Source of the DNA: Candidatus Omnitrophota bacterium
Lineage (GTDB): Bacteria; Omnitrophota; Gorgyraeia; Zapsychrales; JANLHA01
Direction: 5' to 3'
Assembly: GCA_023139575.1 (NCBI GenBank)
Contig: JAGLNJ010000080.1
Location: 1-50,615 of the forward strand
DNA: 50,615 bases
Shown here piece after piece: positions 27,022 to 30,125 of this stretch. Both the position numbers and the translations under genes were made by a program. The notes beneath the pieces were generated by a model, which searched no databases, had not been told where the DNA came from, and worked only from the letters and a program-made list of their open reading frames with translations. The first letter of the stretch is position 1; each line of letters begins with the position of its first letter.

Positions 27022-27663
27022 ATGCCTGCCTGTAAAATCCTGAAAGAATCAAGATTATACCTTGTTTTAGACAGACAGGTTGTGTCTTATGATCGGTTAT
27101 TTGACATCATTAATGAAAGTGTTGCCGCAGGTATGGATGTCGTGCAAATTCGTGACAAGGAAGGGACGAGCTGCGAGCTGTTGGATTTCTGCATCAAAGC
27201 AAAAGAAATCATTAATGGAAGGGCCACTTTTATTGTTAATGACCGCTTAGATTTGGCTTTGGCAGCAGAAGTTGACGGTGTTCATTTAGGCCAGGATGAT
27301 TTGCCGATTGTTCAAGCTCGAAAAATTGCCGGAGAGAAGCTGTCCATAGGGGTTTCTTGTCAAAAGCTTGAGCAGGCGATCCAGGCGCAAAAAGAGGGGG
27401 CGGATTATATCGGTTTTGGTTCTGTCTACAAGACATTAACAAAACCTGACCGTTGTGAGATGGATTTTGATTTAATCAAAGAGGTTCTTTCGCAAATTAA
27501 GATTCCGGTGTTTTTCATTGGCGGAATCAATTTAAATAATGTCGGCCGGCTTTGTCAGGCAGGTGTTGAGCGTGTTGCTGTGACGCGGGCGGTTTGTTTT
27601 GCAGAAAATGTGGCGGATACGGTTAAAGATTTTTTTAAAATTCTGGATAATAAATATAATTGA
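27022..27663 (+). CDS. thiE: Thiamine-phosphate synthase
   Basis: Joins HMP-PP and thiazole phosphate to give thiamine phosphate. The 213-residue TIM-barrel has GMDVVQIRDKEG, the pyrophosphate-binding FIVNDRLDLALAAEVDGVHLGQDD, GVSCQKLEQA, YIGFGSVYKTLTKPD and VFFIGGIN. All are standard ThiE motifs. It follows the ThiD2-type gene by 13 bases, so the two probably act in sequence. Confidence 0.95.
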   Translation: MPACKILKESRLYLVLDRQVVSYDRLFDIINESVAAGMDVVQIRDKEGTSCELLDFCIKAKEIINGRATFIVNDRLDLALAAEVDGVHLGQDDLPIVQARKIAGEKLSIGVSCQKLEQAIQAQKEGADYIGFGSVYKTLTKPDRCEMDFDLIKEVLSQIKIPVFFIGGINLNNVGRLCQAGVERVAVTRAVCFAENVADTVKDFFKILDNKYN

Positions 27664-27665
27664 GC

Positions 27666-27671
27666 TATAAT
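27666..27671 (+). promoter_or_regulatory. Possible -10 box for tRNA-Gly
   Basis: A perfect TATAAT lies 43 bases before the tRNA gene, immediately after the thiE stop. No good -35 is visible at 16-18 bases (nearest TTCTGG at 27641, 19 bases away). A weak promoter for the tRNA/lipoprotein unit is possible. Confidence 0.3.
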
Positions 27672-27714
27672 TCTAGTTTCAAATAGTTGGCTCATAATAA
27701 TTTATGAAAATCAA

Positions 27715-27788
27715 GCGAGGGTGATTCAATGGTAGAATATCAGCTTCCCAAGCTGAATACGCGGGTTCGATTCCCGTCCCTCGCTCCA
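27715..27788 (+). tRNA. tRNA-Gly, anticodon CCC, CCA encoded
   Basis: The 74 bases fold into a full cloverleaf: acceptor GCGAGGG with CCCTCGC, D stem ATTC/GAAT, anticodon stem TCAGC/GCTGA around loop TTCCCAA (anticodon CCC), T stem GCGGG/CCCGT with loop TTCGATT, discriminator T and encoded CCA. U73 is typical for bacterial tRNA-Gly. The anticodon reads GGG. The ATG that opens the following lipoprotein gene lies inside its D arm. Confidence 0.97.
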
Positions 27789-28463
27789 AATTATTTTAAG
27801 AGAAATATATTAGTTGCTGGTTGTGTTCTTTCTTTATTGTCCGGATGCGCTACAGTTGAAGATCATTCTCATATTATTGACCGGGTAGCGAAAAAGGGTG
27901 TTTATCATAAGGTTCAAGAAGGGGAGACGATCTGGCGGATTGCGAACACCTATCAAGTTAAAATTTTTGACATTATTGAAAGCAATAATATTCCCAATGT
28001 CGCACATATTGAAGAGAATCAGCTGATTTTTATTCCCGGGGTTGAACAGATTTATGATATTGCTTCTGTTGCCGCTGATGCCAATGTTGATGATGGTGGT
28101 TTTTCTTGGCCGTTAAGGGGAAAGGTTTCGCCATATTACGGAGAGAGAAAAGGACGGGAGATCAGTAAGGGCATTGGTATTATGGCACAGCCGGGGGAGA
28201 AGGTTAAGGCTGCCCGAACGGGTGATGTGGTATTTGCGGATCAGTTGGCTGGTTATGATTACATGATCATATTAGATCATTTGGACGGATATTTTTCTGT
28301 TTATGCGAAGAATTCAAAATTGTTGGTTAAGTTAGGGCAGCGTGTTAATAAAGGCGATCCTGTTGCTGTTATTGCAGAATCGGGACGTTCGAATTGTTTG
28401 TATTTTGAAATACGAAAAAACGGGAAAACGGACAACCCGTTGTTTTATTTGCCTAAGTTGTAA
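27729..28463 (+). CDS. NlpD-like lipoprotein: LysM plus degenerate LytM (M23) domain
   Basis: The frame encodes, after 19 residues translated from the tRNA, a short basic segment (NYFKRN), a hydrophobic stretch and a lipobox LLSGC (C40), then a LysM domain (about 59-104; YHKVQEGETIWRIAN) and a LytM-like domain (about 124-245; FSWPLRGKVSPYYGERKGR, YDYMIILDHLDGYFSVYAK). The M23 zinc ligands are missing: the HxGID motif reads SKGIGI and HLHFE reads CLYFE. Like E. coli NlpD/EnvC, it is probably a non-catalytic activator of cell-wall amidases. The only in-frame ATG, GTG or TTG before the lipobox is at 27729, with a GAGG eight bases upstream, inside the tRNA. The true start may be a non-standard codon near 27807 or this one. 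Confidence 0.8.
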   Translation: MVEYQLPKLNTRVRFPSLAPNYFKRNILVAGCVLSLLSGCATVEDHSHIIDRVAKKGVYHKVQEGETIWRIANTYQVKIFDIIESNNIPNVAHIEENQLIFIPGVEQIYDIASVAADANVDDGGFSWPLRGKVSPYYGERKGREISKGIGIMAQPGEKVKAARTGDVVFADQLAGYDYMIILDHLDGYFSVYAKNSKLLVKLGQRVNKGDPVAVIAESGRSNCLYFEIRKNGKTDNPLFYLPKL

Positions 28464-28472
28464 GGGATAATA

Positions 28473-30125
28473 ATGAGTATTAATGAATTTGAATCATTCT
28501 TTGGGCGGCAGGACATTCTTGATCTATTGCGGAAGCGTGTCGTGGACCTCAAAGAAGGATACCGCCAGAATATTGCTTTTATCGGCGATTCATATTTAGG
28601 TAAAAGCACGATATTGAAGAAGTTTATTTCGGATCTAGATGAAAAAAATATCGTTCCTATTTATCTCAACCTTGAGAATAAAGATATTGAATATTTTTAT
28701 CAGCGCTTTGTCGGAAGTATTCTTTATCATTTTTCAAAAATTAAGAAATTGCCCCTCCAGCAGGATATCAATCTCCTCATGGAGTCAACATATTCGTTTA
28801 TTCCCCAGACTATAAAGTTGATTAAAAGAATTAAGATGTTGAAGAACCACGGCCGTCAGGAAGAGGCTATTATGGATATGTTGTCGTTGCCGCTGAATTT
28901 TGGCAAAGAAGCGGATGCTTTTGTTCTGATCGTTCTTGATGAATTTCATCATCTGCAGGATTTTAACATGCCGGACATTTTTCAGGAATTAGGGAAACGC
29001 ATCATGACCCAGAAGAGGTGTTTGTATGTTGTCACGAGCTCGCAGCCGGTTGTGGCGGAGAACATATTGTCAGAAAAATTGTCACTGCTTTTCGGCAATT
29101 TTGAAAAAGTGAAGATTAAACCCTTTGATTTGAAGACTAGCCGTGAATTTATTCACTTCATCTTAAAAGGCATAAAAATCAGCGATCATTTATCTGATTT
29201 TCTGATTGATTTTACCGGAGGCTTTCCTTTATATCTCCAGCTTCTTTGCCACGAAATAATTCATTTGTGCACGCATCACAAGCAATCGGAGGTTTTTGTC
29301 CCGATTTTGTCCCAGGCTATCGAAGATGTCCTTTTCAATCACTGGGGCGTTCTAAGCCGTCATTTCGATTTGACCCTGCAGCAGTTATCAGCGGGTAAAG
29401 GCAATACCATCACGTCCCCGCTTTTATTCTCCTTGTCGGAGGGGAAGAAGAAAATTAATGATTTAGTTAAAGAAGTTTCTGTTAAACAAAATCAGATAAC
29501 TCAAAAAATTAACCGTTTGAATGAATTGGGTGTTGTTGTCAAAAACGGAAAGTTTTATTATATTCGGGATAAACTCTTTAAATACTGGTTAAAATATGTT
29601 TGCCGGAAGATATTGTACGCTATGGAGCTTGATCCCGCCAAAGAAAAAAATTTATTGCAAGAGGATATCCAAAAGGCCATTGATAATTTTATCTGCACTT
29701 TGCAAAAAGATTTTTCTACGCGAATTGTTGAGCTGCTTTACTGCTTTGAAAACGAAGCGTTTCAGATTAACGGGCGCAGGTACAAACTTCCGCTTTTTCA
29801 AGAGGTTGTCCCGAAGAAAATCCGTAAGCGGACGGGAGAGTATTTTGATGTGATAAAGGCGTCCTCCGCCGAAGGAGATTGGTTCATTGTTTTAAAGAAA
29901 GATAATATCGGTGAAAATGATATTAATCAATTTCTGGCCGAGGCCAAGAAATCGAAACAAAAGTCTCAGCGATGCGTTCTCATTTCACTGGCTGACTTGG
30001 ATGAAAATACGCGTGTGAAGGCCCTCCAGGAAAGAATGTGGATCTGGAATGAGCGGGAGTTGAACACCCTGCTCAATCTTTATGATAAGCCTTTTATCAC
30101 AGCACCAAATTCCGTGACGGCCTAA
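28473..30125 (+). CDS. ATPase (AAA, archaeal-type/STAND-like) with degenerate nuclease-like C-terminus
   Basis: A 550-residue protein that I can place by architecture but not by name. Residues 38-46 are the Walker A IGDSYLGKST and VLIVLDEFHHL is the Walker B, as in the archaeal ATPase family (PF01637 type). A winged-helix-like region follows (about 325-370: ITQKINRLNELGVVVKNGKFYYIRDKLFKYWLKY). The C-terminal 120 residues resemble the PD-(D/E)xK fold of DUF234-type partners, with YFDVIKAS and DWFIVLKKDNIG, but the acid-x-Lys site is L-x-K-K, so it is probably not catalytic. It follows the NlpD-like gene by nine bases; its substrate is unknown. Confidence 0.7.
   Translation: MSINEFESFFGRQDILDLLRKRVVDLKEGYRQNIAFIGDSYLGKSTILKKFISDLDEKNIVPIYLNLENKDIEYFYQRFVGSILYHFSKIKKLPLQQDINLLMESTYSFIPQTIKLIKRIKMLKNHGRQEEAIMDMLSLPLNFGKEADAFVLIVLDEFHHLQDFNMPDIFQELGKRIMTQKRCLYVVTSSQPVVAENILSEKLSLLFGNFEKVKIKPFDLKTSREFIHFILKGIKISDHLSDFLIDFTGGFPLYLQLLCHEIIHLCTHHKQSEVFVPILSQAIEDVLFNHWGVLSRHFDLTLQQLSAGKGNTITSPLLFSLSEGKKKINDLVKEVSVKQNQITQKINRLNELGVVVKNGKFYYIRDKLFKYWLKYVCRKILYAMELDPAKEKNLLQEDIQKAIDNFICTLQKDFSTRIVELLYCFENEAFQINGRRYKLPLFQEVVPKKIRKRTGEYFDVIKASSAEGDWFIVLKKDNIGENDINQFLAEAKKSKQKSQRCVLISLADLDENTRVKALQERMWIWNERELNTLLNLYDKPFITAPNSVTA

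Follow-up and report, generated by a model that had tools for sequence, protein, structure and literature searches.

A single-copy tRNA-Gly(CCC) gene that probably also provides the translation start of an NlpD-like lipoprotein in Omnitrophota

Introduction

Where does translation of a lipoprotein gene begin when the only ordinary start codon of its reading frame lies inside a tRNA gene? This question is raised by a locus in a contig of Candidatus Omnitrophota bacterium (assembly GCA_023139575.1, contig JAGLNJ010000080.1), the analysed stretch of which, 50,615 nucleotides in length, is referred to here as the window.

Bacteria possess tRNA-mRNA operons, such as thrU-tyrU-glyT-thrT-tufB and secG-leuU of E. 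coli, in which RNase P and 3' nucleases presumably act on a single transcript and, the start codon being located outside the tRNA, release an intact message. The window locus resembles these in that a tRNA gene lies beside a protein gene on what is presumably one processed transcript, but differs in that processing would here remove the start codon. Integrase genes of archaeal SSV-type elements and of some prophages overlap a tRNA/att site as a consequence of site-specific integration, and the window likewise has a protein frame overlapping a tRNA gene, the difference being that the protein is a LysM/M23 lipoprotein rather than an integrase and that its linkage to the tRNA is class-wide. A search of openly available papers found no precedent for a housekeeping protein starting inside a bacterial tRNA. 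Ribosomes cannot translate a tRNA while it folds and is processed, which makes it unexpected to find 60-74 nt of an intact, single-copy tRNA also coding for protein on the same strand.

Results

The tRNA and the lipoprotein frame in the window

The features of the locus are collected in Table 1. The tRNA-Gly(CCC) forms a full cloverleaf with a CCC anticodon and conserved T and D arms, its predicted fold has an energy of -28.2 kcal/mol (z -3.4), and in the Rfam comparison of the window locus the tRNA alone passes, with no other structured RNA; it is also the sole copy found in the window genome. The same sequence carries a Shine-Dalgarno (SD) motif and, from the proposed start codon onwards, 20 codons of the lipoprotein precursor.

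Table 1 Features of the tRNA-lipoprotein locus in the window
Feature	Position	Strand	Basis or remark
Upstream gene, thiamine phosphate synthase (ThiE-like)	27022..27663	+	PF02581, 5.7e-56
Sigma70-like promoter TGGATA-16-TATAAT, upstream of tRNA	27644..27671	+	Consensus match only
Out-of-frame mini-ORF MKIKRG-stop, ending 4 nt before ATG 27729	27704..27724	+	SD weak, -2.1
In-frame TGA, blocking starts upstream of the tRNA	27705..27707	+	Sequence
tRNA-Gly(CCC) gene, CCA encoded	27715..27788	+	ARAGORN; Rfam RF00005, 70.1 bits
SD-like GAGGG, acceptor stem, 7 nt before ATG 27729	27717..27721	+	Sequence; anti-SD pairing
Lipoprotein precursor, 244 aa, LysM and degenerate M23, NlpD-like	27729..28463	+	Pfam
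ATG, proposed lipoprotein start, D loop, tRNA bases 15-17	27729..27731	+	Sole usable in-frame ATG/GTG/TTG
NYFKRNILVAGCVLSLLSGC, remainder of signal peptide to lipobox Cys, without usable start codon	27789..27848	+	Sequence
ATA, near-cognate alternative start, disfavoured	27807..27809	+	SD -2.9; signal peptide without K/R

The first-pass annotation of this DNA had reported that no ATG, GTG or TTG lies between the tRNA 3' end and the lipobox, that the ATG at 27729 in the D arm is the only ordinary start, and that GAGG (27717-27720) is present eight bases upstream of it, also within the tRNA. All three statements agree with our reading. The codons following the tRNA are AAT TAT TTT AAG AGA AAT ATA TTA GTT GCT GGT TGT GTT CTT TCT TTA TTG TCC GGA TGC, in which the single ATG/GTG/TTG, TTG 27837, is situated inside the lipobox LSGC (27837-27848), three residues ahead of the Cys codon (27846-27848). 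The frame that ends at 28463 is open from just 3' of the in-frame TGA, which in the window rules out starts located 5' of the tRNA. Pairing with the anti-SD sequence at ATG 27729 was calculated at -9.5 kcal/mol, while four neighbouring starts tested were weaker (-3.0 to -6.9). Translational coupling or reinitiation from the mini-ORF at ATG 27729 is possible, without SD support, and this ORF may be due to chance.

The protein combines a lipobox with a LysM domain (PF01476, 1.9e-8) and an M23 domain (PF01551, 4.6e-24), as is characteristic of NlpD-like lipoproteins, and Pfam gives only these two domains and no integrase or recombinase domain; an overlap of a mobile element with the tRNA was thus rejected. 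As judged from motif patterns only, its M23 domain has degenerate zinc-ligand positions (SKGIGI, LYFEIR), as in a non-catalytic LytM factor, and the commonest first-ligand pair across loci is N/D (100/183). Most loci lack the usual first zinc-ligand His of the M23 domain (28161-28439 in the window), the motif reading NKGID, or SKGIGI in the window protein, and this His is likewise missing in non-catalytic NlpD/EnvC-type activators. The lipoprotein gene is the sole M23 gene found in its genome, a metagenome-assembled genome (MAG) that is 89.6% complete. Downstream, a gene for an ATPase_2-type (PF01637) AAA protein (28473-30125) starts 10 nt past the lipoprotein stop and is possibly in one operon with it.

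Conserved linkage of tRNA and lipoprotein across the class

The protein was searched for in the genomes of the order (72/81 with a match) and of the class (262/293 with a match), after which the DNA flanking the matches was examined. Among the 176 class loci with a recognisable lipobox, tRNA-Gly(CCC) is located upstream on the same strand in 160, at most 150 nt from the lipobox Cys in 126, and in none of the 176 is another tRNA the nearest upstream one on that strand. The pair thus shows the conserved same-strand adjacency of a tRNA-mRNA dicistronic unit. The gene preceding it varies, being ThiE-like in the window and a different one in the family here designated f35, where its translation reads as a putative PfkB-like protein. 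The tRNA-Gly(CCC) and lipoprotein genes are presumably an old tandem unit expressed as one transcript. With regard to named relatives, a scan of the collection returned a weak Vibrio match only.

Most relatives have a start codon after the tRNA, commonly 6-15 nt past its end. At 58 loci (e.g. L028, L031 and L043) whose start is no more than 15 nt from the tRNA end, an SD is essentially lacking: the median anti-SD pairing is +1.0 kcal/mol for starts within 15 nt, versus -2.8 for starts at 25 nt or more. This lack of an SD at such short distances suggests that in ordinary members tRNA processing releases a message with a short leader, on which initiation then takes place. Relatives of this type could thus work in the manner of leaderless or short-leader processed mRNAs, from which the window differs by its strong SD and by a start that precedes the processing site.

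At the loci without a start codon of their own after the tRNA (defined below), the tRNA appears intact, with full scores of 64.6-72.8 bits in the relatives. It is single-copy in 15 genomes according to an anticodon/T-arm pattern search, and a second tRNA-Gly(CCC), which would free the overlapped one, was not found in these 15 genomes. A separate Gly-UCC tRNA is present in at least 8 of the 15, and in genomes with this tRNA redundancy in glycine decoding is possible; none was found in the window genome (89.6% complete).

Absence of a post-tRNA start is confined to one tRNA phase

Among 155 loci whose tRNA lies at most 400 nt away, a locus was termed no-start if no ATG, GTG or TTG occurs after the tRNA at least 14 residues before the Cys. 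Thirteen loci qualified, all of them with the tRNA in phase 1 (13/61, versus 0/94 in the other phases; Fisher 2.3e-6). Lowering the threshold to 8-13 residues gives 8-13 no-start loci, still in phase 1 only, and at 15-18 residues the phase bias remains significant. Phase 1 alone of the three possible phases holds the D-arm start codon (..MVEYQLPKL..RVRFPSLA..), and in the loci read the other two contain stops in the 5' half of the tRNA (e.g. GGG TAA, TGG TAG). The frame extends without a stop back to the D-loop codon in 13/13 no-start loci, compared with 21/48 phase-1 loci that have their own start (P=2e-4), and that codon is ATG in 10/13 and 16/48, respectively (P=0.01).

Two additional f35 loci, L225 and L243, bring the number of no-start loci to 15, distributed over seven families (f1, f4, f5, f7, f8, f24 and f35); unlike tRNA-mRNA operons, whose protein start lies outside the tRNA, the window and the other 14 loci have no usable start codon following it. 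Because many of these loci belong to f35 (eight of the 15), the P values overstate independence. With two separate genera in f4, at least eight lineages can be counted, for which the chance of the phase bias would be about 6e-4 by our own arithmetic, (61/155)^8. A quick gene tree requires a minimum of 14 changes for the 15 loci; this tree is weak and families are the safer count. Within one genus, L048 retains an ATG 12 nt after the tRNA, whereas L051 is without its own start in the same frame and its tRNA-to-Cys distance is 27 nt (9 codons) shorter. The no-start condition thus appears to have arisen repeatedly, always in the one permissive tRNA phase. The ancestral start was probably located after the tRNA and disappeared, on several occasions, only from loci whose frame continues uninterrupted across the tRNA.

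These counts also bear on a comparison proposed in the first-pass annotation, which had taken an ATG between tRNA and signal peptide in homologues as a sign against a start within the tRNA. Such an ATG is indeed found in most homologues, but its loss is seen in phase 1 only and it is probably ancestral.

Signal peptides that would be read from the tRNA

In most of the 15 no-start loci the tRNA 3' end is also the point at which the hydrophobic core of the signal peptide begins. Ten loci, all in phase 1, have a tRNA-to-Cys gap of less than 55 nt (30-48 nt). Since the hydrophobic core begins at or very near the tRNA end in these loci, the charged n-region must come from the T arm, as illustrated by the junctions ..RVRFPSLA|SSVVVIAVVVSGC (L037), ..RVRFPSPA|FLLFFVFWAGC (L057) and ..GVRFPSLA|IVFCLILAGC (L131), in which the vertical line marks the tRNA end.

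An in-frame ATG at most 24 nt upstream of the tRNA is present in 8/13 no-start loci versus 14/142 others. In f35 this ATG is often at or near the stop of the preceding gene, sometimes with an SD; in L229 a TAA is directly followed by ATG, and the mechanically derived ORF of 260 aa reads MSDRRERNSMVEYELPKLDTWVRFPSLAP...LAGC. The tRNA of f35 genomes with such an ATG would be wholly inside the coding frame, and the window, with its start in the D loop, would be a half-way state.

Alternative explanations for the window

Of the two options offered by the first-pass annotation, a start inside the tRNA is favoured by the phase restriction and by the 30-48 nt gaps of the relatives, while the second, a non-standard ATA/ATT start, fares poorly. 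According to the latter, tRNA 3' processing would release a message on which a near-cognate codon (ATA 27807 or another) is used, and the tRNA would never be translated. A weak SD-like AAGAG is present 5 nt upstream of this ATA (-2.9 kcal/mol), and the many relatives that begin shortly after the tRNA without an SD fit short-leader initiation on a processed message. However, ATA 27807 lies downstream of the only K/R residues and would leave the signal peptide uncharged, near-cognate initiation should be independent of phase, and a charged n-region would not fit after the tRNA in the ten short-gap relatives. We consider this explanation improbable.

A base or assembly error that destroyed a normal post-tRNA start is also improbable, and ranks behind near-cognate initiation. 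The sequence derives from a single MAG of 204 contigs, the only genome of its genus in the comparison, and the KR after the tRNA resembles the remnant of an ordinary n-region; against this, no such losses occur among the 94 loci in the other phases, although their genomes are of similar quality, the frame continues unbroken to 28463, and among the codons before KR neither TAT nor TTT is one substitution away from ATG. As KR follows the tRNA and the genus is represented by one genome in the comparison, near-cognate initiation and base error both retain some weight for the window alone.

That the gene is decaying and not properly expressed, as its lost post-tRNA start and degenerate zinc-ligand positions might indicate, is very improbable, given an intact, conserved frame of 218 aa with LysM, M23 and lipobox, the fact that no second M23 gene was found in the genome, a first ligand that is degenerate at related loci as well, and a phase bias that decay would not show.

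Proposed expression of the locus

We are fairly confident, from the sequence features and comparisons described above, that the window lipoprotein is translated from ATG 27729 in the tRNA D loop, the acceptor-stem GAGGG serving to bind the ribosome; the unit is presumably one transcript, which would be partitioned between tRNA and mRNA. Translation from tRNA sequence likewise appears well supported across the no-start loci. The n-region of the signal peptide would then consist of the tRNA-read MVEYQLPKLNTRVRFPSLAP followed by NYFKRN, and would be removed at the lipobox. Computed folds leave the AUG largely unpaired whatever the transcript length tried; the SD is only partly paired at first and becomes fully buried once the acceptor 3' strand has been transcribed. 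This behaviour favours a kinetic choice, in which a ribosome loading the nascent or unprocessed transcript before the acceptor 3' strand appears would yield protein and no tRNA; alternatively, the RNA would fold and be cut by RNase P and 3' nucleases, yielding the tRNA and removing the lipoprotein start. Processing and translation would in this manner compete for each transcript, with mutually exclusive products, as the first-pass annotation had suggested, and a small unprocessed fraction would suffice for a protein that is made many times per message. Three points weigh against the D-loop start: the SD is predicted to be completely sequestered in the folded tRNA; the window, unlike its short-gap relatives, has KR after the tRNA, so that a start of its own may formerly have been present; and in most homologues the start follows the tRNA.

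For the class as a whole, the balance of the evidence inclines towards repeated evolution of a shared tRNA/mRNA locus, in which an intact, single-copy tRNA also supplies the 5' end of the coding sequence of a conserved envelope lipoprotein, either its start codon or its entire n-region, and each transcript becomes either tRNA or lipoprotein message, an arrangement that could tie envelope remodelling to tRNA processing or growth state. Repeated origin in the permissive phase implies that unprocessed tRNA precursors are translated often enough for selection to rely on this, and competition between tRNA maturation and translation could be studied at this locus in a natural setting. Such starts may escape gene finders in which coding calls over tRNAs are excluded, and similar cases may therefore be hidden elsewhere.

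Other frames across the tRNA

At seven further loci, L228, L246 and L248 of f35 together with L004, L047, L070 and L030, the frame passes through the tRNA from an upstream ATG or a D-loop GTG; these also have a weak or late post-tRNA start, and either start may serve. In L226 (genome G347) an ATG that shares bases with the stop codon of the preceding gene opens the phase-1 tRNA frame, while the lipoprotein lies in another frame further on, the tRNA-covering frame thus being present without the lipoprotein. Just 3' of the tRNA in L030 an inverted repeat, GTATTTTGCTTGGGCT...AGCCTTAGCAAAATAC, resembles a hairpin or terminator, and the frame stays open across it.
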